Shown here piece by piece: positions 7,161 to 26,346 of a DNA stretch of 49,451 nucleotides. Position numbers and translations under genes: made by a program. The stretch comes from Anaerotruncus sp. G3(2012) (GTDB lineage Bacteria; Bacillota; Clostridia; Oscillospirales; Ruminococcaceae), in NCBI RefSeq assembly GCF_000403395.2, contig NZ_KE159668.1, positions 312,888 to 362,338 of the forward strand, read 5' to 3'. The notes beneath the pieces are model-generated. The model had not been told where the DNA came from. It made no database searches and saw only the letters and a program-made list of their open reading frames with translations. The stretch's first letter is position 1. The number at the start of each line of letters is the position of its first letter.

Positions 7161-8768
7161 TTAATGTCTATCTGATGAAGAAAAAACACACAAATCCGAA
7201 CCCATTTCTGAGTTCGGATTTGTGTGTTTTGGTGGAGTACCGGGGGCGTTGCACGAACACCCCGGCCCCGCAAAAGACTCGGCCTCAGTTTCCATTATTA
7301 TATCCATGTCAACGGCGGAACCCTTGCCGGAATAGTTGAACGCAATCCGAATGTGATCGTCCCAGAGATAGACGGCATTCACAAAGGAATCAATGACCTT
7401 TCGCCGGAACTCGGCACTTTCCACATTTCCGCCTCTAAACTGCTCCATCCAGTAAACAATGAAATCCCGTTCAATATGGGTAAGGGAGGCTTCTTCCAAA
7501 CAGATGGCGTCCCGTATTCGGCTGGCCTCGGCCTCCAATTCCATCAGCCGCCCCTTTGTGGTGACGGTGATGATTCCGGCCTCGATGGCCTTCATAACAT
7601 TCTCGGTGGCCTTTTGGTTTTCGGAGAGATCGTCCCGCAAACCAGCAAGCACCGAGGAATTCCCAGCCCTCTCCTGGTAGGCCATGACCGAGTCCGCAAC
7701 CCACTGGATCACCTCCGGCTGGAGTATGTGATCCAGCGCAGCCTGAACCACCAGGCGCTCAATCCAGTCCCGCCGCACATGGCGCTTTTTACACGCCCGC
7801 TCCACCCGGCGCTTATTGCAGGAGTAGTAGAAATAAAGCTCCCCGCTCCGGCTCGTTCCGGCCACCCCAATCATTGGGCTGCCGCAAAGGCCACAGAACA
7901 GCTTCCCGGTCAGCATATAGTCCCCGTTTTCCCGGTGCCGCCCCTGGGGATTTTTCTTTGTTTTCAAGCGCTGCTCCACCTCCAAGAAAAGGGCTTTGTC
8001 GATGATGGCTGGCATTCCACCCTCCACCCGCACATCCGAATAATGATAGACCCCGATATAAGCCTCATTGTGTAGGATGGCATGGAAGCTGTTTTTCCCC
8101 CAAAGACCGCCCCTCTTTGTATGGATGCCCCGGCCATTTAAGCTGTTGGCGATGTCCACAAACGGGGTACCCTTGCTCACCTTTCGGAAAATCTCCCGGA
8201 CAACCTCGGCCTCCGGCTCATAGATGGCAAACCGGCCATCCGGCCCCTTGCAGTACCCAAAGGGCATGGAACCGTTATTCACCTTGCACGCCAGCGCATT
8301 GTAGCGCATTCCCCGCTTGATATTTTGGGAGAGGTTCGCAGAGTAATACTCGGCAGAACCCTCCAGCACGGATTCCAGCAGGATGCCCTCCGGGCCGTCC
8401 GGTATGGATTCCTTTGCATAGATCACGCGAATTCCGTGCTTTTTCAGCCTATATTTATAGGTGGCACTGTCGTACCGGTTCCGGGCAAAGCGGTCAAGTT
8501 TCCAGCATAGCACATAGGACCAATGACCATGGGCCGCGTCCTTCAGCATCTGCTGGAATTGGGGGCGCTTGTCATTTTTTCCTGTTAGATGCCGATCAGC
8601 GTAAATTTTCACCACACGGAGGCCGTTCCTCTGGGCGTATTCCTCACAGTCGGCCACCTGCTGTTCGATAGATGCGTCCCGCTGTGCATGAGAGGAATAC
8701 CGGGCATAGATCACGCAAGGCTGGGCCTGGGATTCATCAAAAGGCCCTTGTTTTTTTACCCCCATCAT
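7161..8768 (-). CDS. Large serine recombinase (phage integrase)
   Basis: Site-specific recombinase that integrates and excises the phage by serine-mediated double-strand exchange. The N-terminal resolvase domain (about residues 17-165) carries YARYSSHAQ with the nucleophile Ser25 and the later DRFARNRYD motif. The recombinase domain (about 170-290) contains MPFGYCKGPDG and GRGIHTKRGG. A zinc ribbon follows (LFCGLCGSPM, then two more Cys), then a coiled-coil stretch and C-terminal tail. The 535-residue length is typical. The second of two tandem ATG codons (8765) is better spaced from GGAGGT (8771-8776). The final residues are encoded by the terminator hairpin and nearby bases, so the C-terminus may be influenced by the integration junction. 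Tyrosine-integrase features are absent. Confidence 0.95.
   Translation of the reverse strand: MMGVKKQGPFDESQAQPCVIYARYSSHAQRDASIEQQVADCEEYAQRNGLRVVKIYADRHLTGKNDKRPQFQQMLKDAAHGHWSYVLCWKLDRFARNRYDSATYKYRLKKHGIRVIYAKESIPDGPEGILLESVLEGSAEYYSANLSQNIKRGMRYNALACKVNNGSMPFGYCKGPDGRFAIYEPEAEVVREIFRKVSKGTPFVDIANSLNGRGIHTKRGGLWGKNSFHAILHNEAYIGVYHYSDVRVEGGMPAIIDKALFLEVEQRLKTKKNPQGRHRENGDYMLTGKLFCGLCGSPMIGVAGTSRSGELYFYYSCNKRRVERACKKRHVRRDWIERLVVQAALDHILQPEVIQWVADSVMAYQERAGNSSVLAGLRDDLSENQKATENVMKAIEAGIITVTTKGRLMELEAEASRIRDAICLEEASLTHIERDFIVYWMEQFRGGNVESAEFRRKVIDSFVNAVYLWDDHIRIAFNYSGKGSAVDMDIIMETEAESFAGPGCSCNAPGTPPKHTNPNSEMGSDLCVFSSSDRH
7183..7230. terminator. Strong bidirectional hairpin at the prophage left edge
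   Basis: A perfect 19-bp inverted repeat (7183-7201 with 7212-7230, ends AAAA/TTTT) surrounds a 10-base loop. With A-runs on one side and T-runs on the other, it can act as an intrinsic terminator in both directions, for YitT on the plus strand and for the recombinase on the minus strand. It lies inside the last codons of the recombinase frame. Confidence 0.8.
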
Positions 8769-8816: not shown

Positions 8817-9372
8817 AGCCGGTAGCCCTGCCGGATTTTCCATGTCCAAAGCCCGATGCATTTTCCGCCGCTTCTTTTTCCTCATCCAGTTGGCGATCCA
8901 ACTCGGCGTGGATTTCCTCCCGCGACATTTCTCGTGGAGATTGAAGAACAGGTGTTGGCGCCGTGCTGTGTTTTTCGAGGCCTAATGCATCGGCTGTGTT
9001 TCGGAAAAGCCGCTCCAAATAGGCACTAAATTCAATTCGATCATGTTCTGGTAGGAATAGGTACTCCCTGAGAAACGCCCGCTCAAATTCAGAGCAATTG
9101 AAACGATGAAATATTTCTTCCAAAACATCGCCGTCATCTGGTTCAAACGGCTCACCGTTTCCTTCCACGAGCCAGCCCTCATCAACTCGAAATTCACGGG
9201 CGATATGCTTTAACACGCTATCTGTAGGAATCCTTCTTCCTGTTTCATAACCAGAGATAGCTGATTTAGTCATTCCCAGTCTTTTTGCAAATTCCTCTTG
9301 GCTTAGATCGCCGCAGTTTTCGCGAACAAAGAGAATACGCTCCCCCATGTTCATACCAGCGTAAACGGACAC
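8815..9372 (-). CDS. XRE-family repressor (cI-like lysogeny regulator)
   Basis: DNA-binding repressor expected to hold the rightward early promoter off during lysogeny. The N-terminal helix-turn-helix domain (about residues 10-68) has the Cro/CI pattern: LSQEEFAKRLGMTKSAISGY, then an ETGRRIPTDSVL segment and a DEGWLVEG segment ending the domain. The rest is acidic and charged; no LexA-type Ser-Lys peptidase motif is visible, so induction may not use RecA-stimulated self-cleavage. The start is a GTG at 9372, eight bases after GGAGGT (9381-9386). It is divergent from the early operon, its promoter carries a GTACGC element, and autoregulation is likely. Confidence 0.93.
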   Translation of the reverse strand: MSVYAGMNMGERILFVRENCGDLSQEEFAKRLGMTKSAISGYETGRRIPTDSVLKHIAREFRVDEGWLVEGNGEPFEPDDGDVLEEIFHRFNCSEFERAFLREYLFLPEHDRIEFSAYLERLFRNTADALGLEKHSTAPTPVLQSPREMSREEIHAELDRQLDEEKEAAENASGFGHGKSGRATG

Positions 9373-11823: not shown

Positions 11824-12029
11824 ACAGCCTGAACTGGACAGCCATCATCATCGCAGCCATGGCTTGCCTTAGCGCAATGGCCATCGCAAACAATCTGAAC
11901 CAGAGCGCCAAAAAGTGGCGGGACATCGAGTGGGCGCGTAACGAGCGGACGAAAAAGAAAGCCTCCGCCGCTGTCAGCCTTATTCTGCAGGAAGGGGCGA
12001 AGGTGCATGAAACAGGCGAAAACCAGTGA
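11808..12029 (+). CDS. Small single-pass membrane protein
   Basis: A 73-residue protein with one hydrophobic segment near the N-terminus (about residues 8-28, WTAIIIAAMACLSAMAIA) followed by a basic, charged cytoplasmic tail rich in Lys and Arg. It overlaps both neighbours (16 and 23 bases). Membrane topology is all that can be read from it. It is the third gene between the helicase halves. Confidence 0.65.
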   Translation: MLEFLNSLNWTAIIIAAMACLSAMAIANNLNQSAKKWRDIEWARNERTKKKASAAVSLILQEGAKVHETGENQ

Positions 12030-13410
12030 AAGCGCTCCGTGTGGAAAGGGCTTCGGCTTTCTTTTCGAGATGGGCTGTGGCAAAACTCTCACCGCAATAG
12101 CGGTGACCGGGGCCGGGTACCAGATGGGCAAGATCAAGCGGGTGCTGATTGTGGCCCCCACAAGCGTCTGCGCCGTATGGCCGAAAGAGTTTCAGGACTA
12201 TGCCGCTTTTCCGTACACCATCCGCACGATGCTGGGGACAAAGGCGCAGCGCCTGAAGGAACTGCATGATCTGGTGCGCTTCCCCTACCCCCACCTGAAG
12301 GTGGCCGTGATCAACTACGAATCCACATGGCGGGAGGGAATCTTCGAGGCCCTGCTGGACTACGATGCCGACCTCATCATAGCTGATGAGAGCCAGCGCA
12401 TCAAGACACACAACGCCTCCCAAAGCAAGGCCATGCACGAGCTGGGGGACAAAGCCCGGTACAAGCTCATCCTTTCGGGAACGCCGGTGCAAAATGAGGC
12501 CATCGACATCTTCAGTCAGTACCGATTCCTCGACCCCTCGGTTTTTGGCCTGAACTTCTACTCCTTCAAAAACCGGTACTGCGTGATGGGCGGCTTTGAA
12601 CAGCGGCAGATCATCCGGTATCGGGACCTGGACCAGCTGATCAAGAAAGAACACAGCATCGCCTACAGGGTGACCAAAGAGGAAGCCCTCGACCTGCCGG
12701 AACAGACCTTCGAGAGCCGCTATGTTTCCCTGAGCGCAAAAGAGCGCAGCCTGTACGACCGGCTCCGGCGGGACAGCTATGCAGAGCTGGACAGCGGCGG
12801 CACTATCACGGCCACAACCGTCCTGACCCGGCTCCTGCGCCTCCAGCAATTCACCGGCGGCTTTCTGGTGGAGGATGAAGCCACCAAGCCCCAGTTGGTG
12901 AGCCGGGGGAAGCTGGATGCACTGGCGGACATCCTGCAGGATTATGTGGTCGAGGGTGGCAAGAAGCTGGTGATCTTCGCTCGGTTCCTCCCGGAAATCC
13001 ATGAGATCGAGGCGCTGTGCGAAAAGGTGTTCAAAGCCTCGACGCACAAAGGGCAGCCGCCCAAAAGGGCGGTGGCGATTTACGGGGAAATCAAAAAAGA
13101 GGAACGCGGCGGCATCGTCCAGCAATTCCAGACCGACCCCGGCACGATGGTATTCATCGGGCAGATCGATACCGCCGGGACCGGCATCACCCTGACCGCC
13201 GCCGACACCTGCGTTTATTACAGCGTGAATTTCAACTACGCCACCTATGAGCAAAGCCTTTCCCGGATTCACCGAATCGGACAGTGGCACCCCTGCACCT
13301 ACATACACCTGCAGGTGGAAAACAGCATAGACGGCATGGTGCTGGCGGCTCTTTCCAAAAAGGAGGACCTGGCAAAAACGGTGGTGGACAGCTGGAAGCA
13401 ATTCTTCTGA
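12007..13410 (+). CDS. SNF2/DEAD-like helicase ATPase core (C-terminal part of split helicase)
   Basis: A superfamily 2 ATPase with both RecA-like lobes. Lobe 1 has Walker [11 protein letters not shown] (GCGKT at 23-27), motif Ia-like [13 protein letters not shown], Walker B ADES (127-130) and motif [11 protein letters not shown] (158-164). Lobe 2 has [19 protein letters not shown] (motif V) and the SNF2-type motif [12 protein letters not shown]. The protein begins abruptly 14 residues before Walker A, so the N-terminal region usual in the family is missing; a matching N-terminal part lies at 10773-11138. It probably remodels protein-DNA complexes during phage replication. The ATPase call is firm and the partner relation is inference. 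Confidence 0.92.
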
Positions 13411-13423
13411 GGGGAGGCAGGCC

Positions 13424-14740
13424 ATGGAAAGCCTGACGCACCTATCACTGTTCACGGGGATCGGCGGATTGGATCTCGCCGCGGAAACCGCCGGTTTTCA
13501 GACGGTGGGCCAGTGCGAATGGGCCGACTACCCCACAAAGATTCTGGAACGCCACTGGCCGGAGGTTCCCCGCTGGCGGGACATCCGGACACTGACAAGG
13601 GAGAGCTTCTATGAGCGAACAGGTCTACGAACAGTTGACATTATTTCCGGTGGATTCCCGTGCCAGCCCTTCAGCACTGCCGGGAAGCGCCGAGGCCGTG
13701 AGGATGACCGTTACCTCTGGCCAGAGATGCTCCGAGTTATTACGGAAATCAAGCCCACTTGGATTATTGGCGAAAATGTTGCTGGAATCATCAACATGGC
13801 ACTCGACACTGTGCTGGCTGACTTGGAACTTCAAGGCTACGAAGCAAGGGCGATTGTACTTCCAGCTTGCGGCGTCAATGCCCCGCATAAGAGATACCGA
13901 TGCGCCATTGTGGCCCACACCGGCGGCAAGGGACTGCAAGGGGGCCAACAGCATGGAGTATCTGCAGAGGGAGGGCAAGCGCAACCACGCCGATCAACTG
14001 GCCAATGCGGTGAGGCTGTGGCCCACGGTGACAGCCTCGGATTACAGGGCCAGAGGGCCGAACAGCCATCAGCAGGGACTGCCAGAGGCAGTGCGGATGT
14101 GGCCCACACCTACCAGCCGCAGCGGGACAGGCCCCTCGCAGACGGAAACCCGTCAGGGCGGCATGGATCTGCAGACAGCGGCGGCGCTTTGGCCTACCCC
14201 CACGGTGACTGGGAACTACAACCATCCGGGGAGCGGCCCAAAGGCAGGGATGGGGCTGGCCACAGCGGCAAAACTCTACCCGACCCCAACCCAATTCGAT
14301 GCGACCTGTGGGGACATCAAGGGCAAGGAATACAATGGCCAGACCCAACACGCTATGAAGCTGATCCAGGCGGCAAAGCTGTATCCGACACCTACGACCG
14401 GGGCGGGCCTCTGCGGCGGGACGGGCAATTACCAACAGCTCAAGGCGCTGGAGGCAGACGGCACGATCTCGACAGAGGAACGCCGCAGCATGGCGGCGGG
14501 GAACGGTGGACAACTGAATCCAGAGTGGGTGGAGGCCATGATGGGCTTCCCCATTGGATGGACAGCGTCCGGGCCGGATGGGCAGATGGAAGCTGGGAAC
14601 TCGGAATCCCCCGCGTGACTGGCAAGATTCCAGACCGGGCGAACCGGCTGAAATGCCTCGGCAATGCGGTAGTCCCTGCTCAGTTTTACCCTATCTTCAA
14701 GGCGATTTTTGACATAGAGAAAGGAGTGATCCAAGAATGA
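13424..14740 (+). CDS. C5-cytosine DNA methyltransferase
   Basis: Transfers a methyl group from S-adenosylmethionine to C5 of cytosine in DNA, probably protecting phage DNA from restriction. In its 438 residues all key motifs appear in order: motif I FTGIGGLD (10-17), motif [12 protein letters not shown] with nucleophile Cys80, motif VI ENV (117-119), motif [13 protein letters not shown] (156-164) and motif [12 protein letters not shown] near the C-terminus. The region between VIII and X is Gly/Arg/Gln-rich and built of VAHT/VSDT-type repeats. GGGGAGG at 13411-13417 sets the start. No restriction enzyme is nearby, so it is a solitary methyltransferase. A second 335-codon gene is nested in the +1 frame (13611-14618), and most of the target-recognition region is read in both frames. 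Confidence 0.93.
13611..14618 (+). CDS. Overprinted WPTP-repeat protein nested in the methyltransferase gene
   Basis: A 335-residue frame lying wholly inside the methyltransferase gene, shifted +1. It has its own ribosome binding site (AAGGGAGA at 13597-13604, seven bases before ATG). The N-terminal 90 residues ([20 protein letters not shown] onward, with [18 protein letters not shown]) and the six W/Y-P-T repeats (W/Y at residues 101, 137, 164, 194, 223, 258; for example [15 protein letters not shown]) match proteins I recognise from many phages of Clostridia, usually annotated hypothetical or loosely as methyltransferase-related. The composition is that of a normal protein, unlike a random shadow frame. 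Function is unknown; it could modulate or partner the methyltransferase. Confidence 0.8.
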
Positions 14741-25005: not shown

Positions 25006-26346
25006 GTGAAATTTGAACGGCGGAAGCTGGCTGATTTGCGGCCGGCAGAGTACAATCCCCGCAAGAAACTGACCCCGGATGACCCGGAATATATCCAAAT
25101 TCGCAACAGCCTGAACGAATTCGGGTACGCCGATCCCATCGTGATCAACAGCGATGGCACCATCATCAAGGGCCACCAGCGCCGCAATGTGATGATGGAC
25201 CTGGGCTATACCGAGGCAGAGGTTATCATTCTCGACATTCAGGACAAGGCAAAGGAAAAAGCCCTGAACATTGCCCTGAACAAAATCACCGGCAAGTGGG
25301 ACAACGCCATCCTGAAAGACCTGCTGGTGGAGCTTGACCTCGAAGGGTATGACTTCTCGGTGACTGGCTTTCAGCGCCCCGACCTGGAAGATTTGATTCA
25401 GGAACTGGACATTCCGCCAGAGGCCACAGAGGATGACTTCGACCCGGAAGAAGCCGCAAAGAACATTGATGTCCCTACCACCCGCAAGGGGGACATCTGG
25501 CAGTTAGGCCGGCACCGCCTCATGTGTGGCGATTCCACCGATGCCGCCGATGTGGAGCGGCTGATGGGCGGCGCAAAGCTCGACCTCATCATCACCGACC
25601 CGCCCTACAATGTGGACTACGGCGCAAAGACGGAATTTCTGGAAAGCTATCTCGGTCAAGAGGGCAGCAGGGCGAACAGCACCATCGAAAACGACCACAT
25701 GGATGCCTTGAGCTTTTACAAATTCCTGCTGGCATCTTTCCAGAATATGAACCAAGCCATGCGGCCCGGTGCCGCGATCTATGTTTTTCACGCCGAAAGC
25801 ACCGGCCTCCAATTCCGGCAAGCCTATGCCGATGCAGGGCTGAAAATGGCACAATGCCTGATCTGGGAGAAAAACGCCTTCGTTCTGGGCCGTCAGGATT
25901 ACCAATGGCGGCATGAGCCGATTCTCTACGGCTGGAAAGAGGGGGCGGCGCATTATTTCATCAATGACCGCACCCAGGACACCGTACTGCTGGAAGATGA
26001 GCTGGACTTCAAAGCTATGAAGAAGCAGGAACTTCTGGCTTTCATCGAAAATTACATCCGGCAGTACAAAGACCTGACCACCGTCCACTTTGAAAACAAA
26101 CCGGCCCGGAATGCCCTGCACCCCACCATGAAGCCCATCCCGCTGGTCGGGCGGCTGATGAACAACTCCAGCAAACCGGGATGGATGGTCGGTGACTTCT
26201 TCGGAGGGAGCGGCACCACCCTCATGGCGGCGGAACAGCTGGGCCGGACAGCCTATCTCATGGAGTACGATGAGCGCAATGTGGATGTGATCGTCCAGCG
26301 CTGGGAAGCCTACACCGGAAAAAAGGCGGTGCTGCTGAATGAATGA
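25006..26346 (+). CDS. ParB-like domain fused to a DNA N6/N4 methyltransferase
   Basis: A 446-residue two-domain protein. The N-terminal ParB/Srx nuclease-like domain (about residues 1-100) shows NPRKKL, then the GTIIKGHQRRN box. The C-terminal beta-class amino-methyltransferase has the catalytic ITDPPYNVDYG motif (about residues 200-210) and the SAM-binding FGGSGTT motif (about 405-411). It should methylate adenine N6 or cytosine N4 in phage DNA, probably for protection; the target sequence is unknown. It starts with GTG after AAAAGGAGGG, overlaps the next gene by 8 bases, and is the first gene after the late leader, ahead of terminase. Confidence 0.92.
   Translation: MKFERRKLADLRPAEYNPRKKLTPDDPEYIQIRNSLNEFGYADPIVINSDGTIIKGHQRRNVMMDLGYTEAEVIILDIQDKAKEKALNIALNKITGKWDNAILKDLLVELDLEGYDFSVTGFQRPDLEDLIQELDIPPEATEDDFDPEEAAKNIDVPTTRKGDIWQLGRHRLMCGDSTDAADVERLMGGAKLDLIITDPPYNVDYGAKTEFLESYLGQEGSRANSTIENDHMDALSFYKFLLASFQNMNQAMRPGAAIYVFHAESTGLQFRQAYADAGLKMAQCLIWEKNAFVLGRQDYQWRHEPILYGWKEGAAHYFINDRTQDTVLLEDELDFKAMKKQELLAFIENYIRQYKDLTTVHFENKPARNALHPTMKPIPLVGRLMNNSSKPGWMVGDFFGGSGTTLMAAEQLGRTAYLMEYDERNVDVIVQRWEAYTGKKAVLLNE

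Follow-up and report, generated by a model that had tools for sequence, protein, structure and literature searches.

The C5 cytosine methyltransferases M.EcoHK31I and M.AquI have the targets YGGCCR and CYCGRG, respectively. Both are natural two-polypeptide enzymes according to the available passages of PMC3404938, which place motifs I to VIII and X of C5 enzymes in a large domain, and the target-recognition domain and motif IX in a small domain. The same passages report that inactive fragments of M.SssI complement one another best if the C-terminal piece begins after motif VIII and ahead of the predicted recognition domain (PMC3404938).

A pair of nested reading frames with a similar division is found in the window, a stretch of 49,451 nucleotides from Anaerotruncus sp. 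G3(2012) (contig NZ_KE159668.1, positions 312,888 to 362,338 of the forward strand) whose own numbering is used below. The split between the two frames falls at the domains described above, and for this reason a catalytic chain and a recognition chain are proposed. Judged from its sequence, the locus very probably encodes a single C5 cytosine methyltransferase divided between two proteins, with a catalytic alpha chain that carries motifs I to VIII and X, and a beta chain that would carry target recognition and motif IX and would be made from an internal start.

The alpha frame is the C5-methyltransferase frame, and runs on the forward strand from the ATG at 13424 to the TGA at 14740 (438 codons). 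A motif search of the window located, all on the forward strand, what we take to be motifs I (13448), IV (PCQ; 13649), VI (ENV; 13769) and VIII (13889), with a putative motif X of 10 residues (14648 to 14677) lying 3' of the beta stop codon. These are the five motifs that the original prediction had ascribed to this frame, and they agree with the matches of Pfam PF00145 to alpha residues 6-169 (1.4e-36) and, in a sequence search of the PDB, of HhaI to residues 4-170 (6.4e-16). The features expected of a C5 cytosine DNA methyltransferase are thus found in the window, both the catalytic domain with motifs I, IV, VI and VIII and the pair of motifs IX and X, but X is in alpha whereas IX is in beta only, and a motif-IX pattern search of alpha found none. 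Between motifs VIII and X, alpha consists of a spacer rich in G, Q, R and H.

The beta frame lies wholly inside alpha, in the +1 frame, from the ATG at 13611 to the TGA at 14618 (forward strand, 335 codons), exactly as had been predicted. The ribosome binding site that it was said to possess corresponds to the ribosome-binding-like sequence AAGGGAG at 13597 to 13603 (forward strand), 5' of the beta ATG and inside alpha. The N-terminal part of beta overlaps alpha motifs IV to VIII (13611 to 13915, forward strand), a segment in which alpha is dominant and beta adds constraint, and an AlphaFold model predicts helices there and a hairpin of 17 residues (13818-13868). It is followed by six W/Y-P-T repeats, all of which could be placed, at 13911, 14019, 14100, 14190, 14277 and 14382 (13911 to 14393, forward strand). 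A stretch of 20 residues in the C-terminal part (14505 to 14564, forward strand) corresponds to what is presumably motif IX, the one that alpha lacks. It is proposed that the repeat region (13911 to 14393) represents the target-recognition region, with the alpha frame acting there as a spacer. The original prediction also held that repeats coincide in both frames, and this stands for VAHT (13910) over WPTP (13911); the overlay of SKGLQG on ARDCKG is imprecise, as the first repeat reads GGKGLQG over ARDCKG.

The number of W-P-T-like units, counted with a loose pattern, ranges from 0 to 8 across 157 betas, and relatives of the window differ, by eye, by entire WPTP units. In a comparison with two related loci (L006 and L007), the WPTP units at 14019-14210 of the window are 93% identical in DNA, as opposed to 83% for the alpha/beta N part (13424-13900). 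The higher identity of the repeats hints that repeat units may be exchanged between genes.

Loci with this arrangement were gathered from phage records, from the same genome and related genomes, from IMG/VR and from GTDB contigs, with the best 80 taken from each of two large scans. Profiles of the N- and C-terminal parts of each chain (alpha N, alpha C, beta N and beta C), each built from 9 to 11 seed loci, were scanned over all frames. Once 14 identical duplicates, the only rows dropped, were removed from 189 rows, 175 distinct loci were left. Both frames are intact and nested in 157 of the 175, the window's own copy included, although most of the 157 had been retrieved through beta and the set consists of loci scored as intact, so that its open frames are partly a matter of construction. 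The position of beta is invariant, being +1 relative to alpha in 170 of 170 loci with both N-termini. Half of the 18 loci that were not scored as intact are incomplete (L006, L011, L013, L019, L024, L026, L028, L029 and L183); a further three have motif X in beta (L031, L037 and L113), three have both frames shifted together (L150, L166 and L168), one has a split alpha (L114), and two were scored as having a split beta (L071 and L070). Of the last two, L070 is actually intact, the scoring having been misled by a second IX-like ORF downstream.

Two of these loci show further peculiarities. Just 3' of the intact nested pair in L070, a small ORF (L070:2120-2350) combines a WPTP unit with a motif-IX end, much like a spare recognition cassette. 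In the case of L026 (L026:1297-3372; MT835926.1, a human gut phage), alpha seems by eye to be interrupted by an intein at the PCQ cysteine, and its reading is also broken by a stop codon in the scaffold.

A less biased test relied on a query for the alpha N-terminus only, from which the best 80 loci of a capped list were taken; the alignment behind the query was made from loci that carry beta, and the 80 include 23 already encountered. Four of the 80 lie at a contig edge, and 69 of the other 76 are nested and intact. The remaining seven comprise one locus with motif X in beta, one with a broken beta, one with a broken alpha, and four in which both frames are shifted together (L196, L198, L210 and L246), either by decay or by sequence error. 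Alpha without beta was found in 0 of the 76 complete loci from this best-80 set. The original prediction had named repeated breakage of one frame with retention of the other as evidence against it, and such a pattern was looked for and not found: with incomplete and contig-edge loci excluded, the single-frame breaks are one of beta (L071, on the same contig as L232) and two of alpha (L114 and L209).

Shuffled sequences do not reproduce these open frames. When the window was shuffled synonymously with respect to alpha, beta was left open in 0 of 100 shuffles (mean of 6.4 stop codons), and the beta N profile scored 178 bits on the window DNA versus at most 91.5 bits on the shuffles, the window being among the 11 seeds of that profile. 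For the 157 loci, beta was open in 1.5% of such trials, and the real DNA scored above every shuffle in 153 loci with the beta N profile and in 155 with the beta C profile, 9 to 11 of the loci being seeds of the profiles. In the reverse direction, alpha is open through the spacer in 157 of 157 loci, a set chosen to be so, versus 7.4 predicted by beta-synonymous shuffles. Five-base words resembling a ribosome binding site are found ahead of beta in 108 of the 146 loci with a usable start, versus 70.2 expected, with the 11 loci that have no nearby start codon dropped from this count. The prediction of two coherent, overprinted frames is borne out in that most loci keep both and shuffles do not regenerate beta, and dual coding, with alpha and beta both apparently under selection, is well supported.

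Which of the two frames is selected depends on the position along the gene. A comparison of substitutions in each frame, as proposed with the original prediction, was made on 171 pairs of loci and then on 40 pairs in which each locus was used once, with counts restricted to aligned blocks whose DNA is at least 72% identical; the first position of an alpha codon is the third position of a beta codon. Over the 40 pairs, the rates at alpha positions 1, 2 and 3 are.086,.051 and.314 in the alpha-only N part (13424 to 13610, forward strand), where third positions are fastest, and.105,.051 and.167 in the catalytic overlap, the third-position rate being roughly halved relative to the N part. The corresponding rates are.197,.067 and.046 in the repeat region,.170,.055 and.090 in the region of motif IX, and.072,.037 and.267 in the alpha-only part with motif X. 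Among pairs with enough sites, position 3 exceeds position 1 in 30 of 30 for the N part, and position 1 exceeds position 3 in 23 of 23 for the repeats. The count over 171 pairs agrees with this picture, and position 3 is fastest in all four regions of 22 single-frame control loci (163 overlapping pairs).

Substitutions were also sorted by their effect on each protein. Over the 171 pairs, those that are silent in alpha and change beta are in excess in the catalytic overlap (3163 seen, 1584 expected), indicating that beta is weakly constrained there, and are depleted in the repeats (545 seen, 1148 expected), where those that are silent in beta and change alpha are in excess (2839 seen, 1126 expected). 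The pattern in the repeats means that the alpha spacer is kept open with its amino acids little conserved, and that it is the amino acids of beta that are conserved there. Thus, both frames are selected, and the frame under selection switches from alpha over motifs I to VIII, to beta over the WPTP region, and to alpha again over motif X. The original prediction had assigned target recognition to the alpha frame over the repeats. However, alpha codons are passengers in this region and beta codons are conserved, and the target-recognition part is therefore most likely beta itself.

As to the nature of beta, the phrog_1008 profile matches it (1e-41) and also matches a single-frame methylase (2e-81). 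When the beta profile was compared in hhalign with the C-terminal halves of 15 single-frame actinophage enzymes, the match had a probability of 97.4 (E 1e-11), versus 2.3 for a control comparison with alpha N. This match spans 87 columns that comprise the WPTP/LPTP repeats and motif IX, with the N-terminal part of beta falling outside. In four loci (L031, L037, L113 and L222), alpha stops shortly after motif VIII, and motifs IX and X are both carried by beta; these betas align with the single-frame enzymes over IX and X (hhalign probability 98.2). On a tree of 152 alpha N-termini, in which four rows have the trait and the bootstrap is not fully settled, the relocation of motif X amounts to three changes, all forced by starred branches. 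A motif that is able to sit in either chain is what would be expected of two chains of one enzyme. The presence of motif IX in beta and the match to the C-terminal half of single-frame enzymes make it most likely that beta supplies the domain which alpha lacks, as part of one enzyme, and is not the second protein that had been envisaged.

Other searches with beta gave no relevant matches. Pfam and NCBIfam returned none for the window beta, Pfam returned no methylase match for the betas of L031, L037 and L113, which carry IX and X, and a PDB sequence search found no C5 enzyme with either the beta profile or the profile of the IX- and X-bearing betas. The AlphaFold model of the window beta (alignment of 117 rows) has a mean pLDDT of 57.8 and is confident only in part of its helices, in a single hairpin and in the helices around motif IX at the C-terminus, and that of a compact beta, L135 (61 rows), has a mean pLDDT of 62.0. 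A Foldseek search of the PDB with these low-confidence models found no match at E <=0.001.

The absence of a structural match, together with an N-terminal part for which no counterpart has been shown in single-frame enzymes, would suit a beta that is a separate accessory protein, such as an inhibitor, a regulator or an anti-restriction factor, overlapping a methyltransferase that is complete in itself. Such an explanation is unlikely, as no motif IX was seen in alpha, whose amino acids are not selected in the repeat region, while beta resembles single-frame enzymes in their C half and can carry motif X, and alpha alone was found in 0 of 76 complete loci among the best 80. The existence of single-frame relatives shows that one chain can hold all of the parts, and raises a different possibility, whereby the beta part would be reached by programmed frameshifting from alpha to yield one long chain with no internal initiation. 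However, the protein signal of beta begins well 5' of motif VIII and is above what alpha codons force, third alpha positions are slowed by about half over the catalytic overlap (.314 to.167), and ribosome-binding-like sequences are enriched 5' of the beta start (108 of 146), all of which makes frameshifting very unlikely. Lastly, a GC content of 0.567 and repeated sequence may open frames by chance, and the beta frame could be seen as a by-product of the composition and repeats of the alpha gene; this is scarcely credible, given that none of the window shuffles was open, that the beta N and beta C profiles exceed all shuffles in nearly every locus (153 and 155 of 157, with 9 to 11 seeds), and that the repeats conserve beta codons and not alpha codons.

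Under the preferred reading of one enzyme in two chains, alpha would supply the large catalytic domain, consisting of motifs I to VIII followed, after the spacer, by motif X. Translation of beta would start at its own ATG within alpha and supply the small domain, with WPTP target recognition and motif IX, and the two chains would then assemble into an active enzyme, the nested layout causing both to be inherited together. We infer internal initiation in vivo, assembly, activity, specificity and biological role from the sequence. A more elaborate version is doubtful, and is offered tentatively: the split methyltransferase would be very widespread, in phages and in genomes that bear the labels of eleven bacterial phyla, and the WPTP units of its recognition domain, overprinted on the catalytic gene, would form an exchangeable array with different targets for each unit, while the two frames would be obliged to keep their register and motif X could pass from one chain to the other.

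The surroundings of the locus are those of a tailed-phage prophage, with alpha and beta within its early region. A serine recombinase (7164-8768) and an HTH protein (8818-9372), both on the reverse strand, are followed by a SNF2-type helicase (12007-13410) immediately 5' of alpha, and downstream are a primase/helicase (17407), a terminase (27618), a portal protein (29621), a tail sheath protein (35742) and a tape measure protein (38250). Scans of a subset of the window proteins (14 in Pfam and 12 in PHROGs, some in both) revealed no restriction enzyme. This negative result and the location in a prophage early region suggest that alpha/beta probably serves the phage as an orphan modification enzyme. 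The same prophage has a second modification-type gene, whose product combines a ParB-like part with a DNA methyltransferase domain (25006-26346; PHROGs match). A second alpha/beta copy in the same genome (L332, G000:C19:26000-44000) is cut inside the beta repeat region, with the C-terminal part of beta some 10 kb away on the opposite strand and a run of N present; by eye, the surrounding ORFs resemble group II intron and IS genes. An invertible recognition domain, and hence phase variation, was considered for this copy and dropped, because a search showed no inverted repeats at the breakpoints and because of the mobile-looking genes and the run of N, and the copy may represent a rearrangement or an assembly fault.

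Intact nested pairs are present in GTDB contigs whose labels cover eleven phyla (Bacillota, Actinomycetota, Acidobacteriota, Planctomycetota, Thermodesulfobacteriota, Bacteroidota, Spirochaetota, Myxococcota, Pseudomonadota, Fidelibacterota and Chlorobiota), many of these being metagenome bins whose host labels may be wrong. The original attribution of the nested protein to phages of Clostridia was too narrow. To our knowledge, long same-strand nested genes conserved across phyla are rare. In this case, the two nested products seem to complement each other as domains of a single enzyme, and the selected frame visibly changes along the gene. Many genes annotated simply as 'DNA methyltransferase' may be half an enzyme, in which case expression of alpha by itself should be unsuccessful, and the recognition subunit can escape gene callers that penalise overlaps. 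The locus also offers a natural test case for the origin and persistence of a split enzyme and of an overlapping gene.

Among comparable systems, the single-frame actinophage enzymes (Mycobacterium phage Akhila gp60 and its relatives) share the order of motifs I to VIII, LPTP repeats, IX and X, but do so in one chain and one frame. Of 62 loci fetched, 34 pass a pattern test for IV, IX and X in one ORF, and the 28 that fail do so by the order test (18) or by having no candidate ORF (10). The same nested pair as in the window is seen in the phrog_1008 gene pairs of Paenibacillus larvae phages, and in the case of Paenibacillus phage Bloom both nested genes are annotated as DNA cytosine methyltransferase. 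Such genes are tabulated in a P. larvae phage genome paper, the available passages of which do not discuss dual coding (PMC6070908). No paper on dual coding in the alpha/beta family was found among the matches listed in a search of titles and abstract openings of open-licence PMC literature, and none of the seven records from a plasmid search was named as a known split enzyme.

M.AquI is alike in being a natural two-chain C5 enzyme, and the four loci with motif X in beta (L031, L037, L113 and L222) share out their motifs much as M.AquI does in the passages cited at the outset. It differs from the window in that IX and X are both on its small chain, whereas X of the window is in alpha. For M.EcoHK31I, the available passages describe a large chain with motifs I to VIII and X and a small chain with IX only, a division identical to that in the window, but place the predicted recognition domain on the large chain (PMC3404938), whereas substitution rates here indirectly place it on the small one. 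The original statement that dual coding had no description may thus be too strong: none was found for this family, but M.EcoHK31I is described in those passages as a two-polypeptide enzyme with IX alone on its small chain. A further difference is that a beta can hold as many as eight W-P-T-like units, counted with a loose pattern, and the likeness to M.EcoHK31I is drawn from motif layout. A 1995 paper on M.EcoHK31I reportedly describes the small ORF as lying within the large ORF, in another frame. If so, the dual coding of one enzyme has been on record since 1995, and the novelty here lies in how widely the arrangement occurs, in the switch of the selected frame, in a nested chain that holds the recognition region and in the mobility of motif X. 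With M.AquI and M.EcoHK31I both known as two-polypeptide C5 enzymes, the alpha/beta locus is therefore a widespread variant of an already known kind of enzyme.
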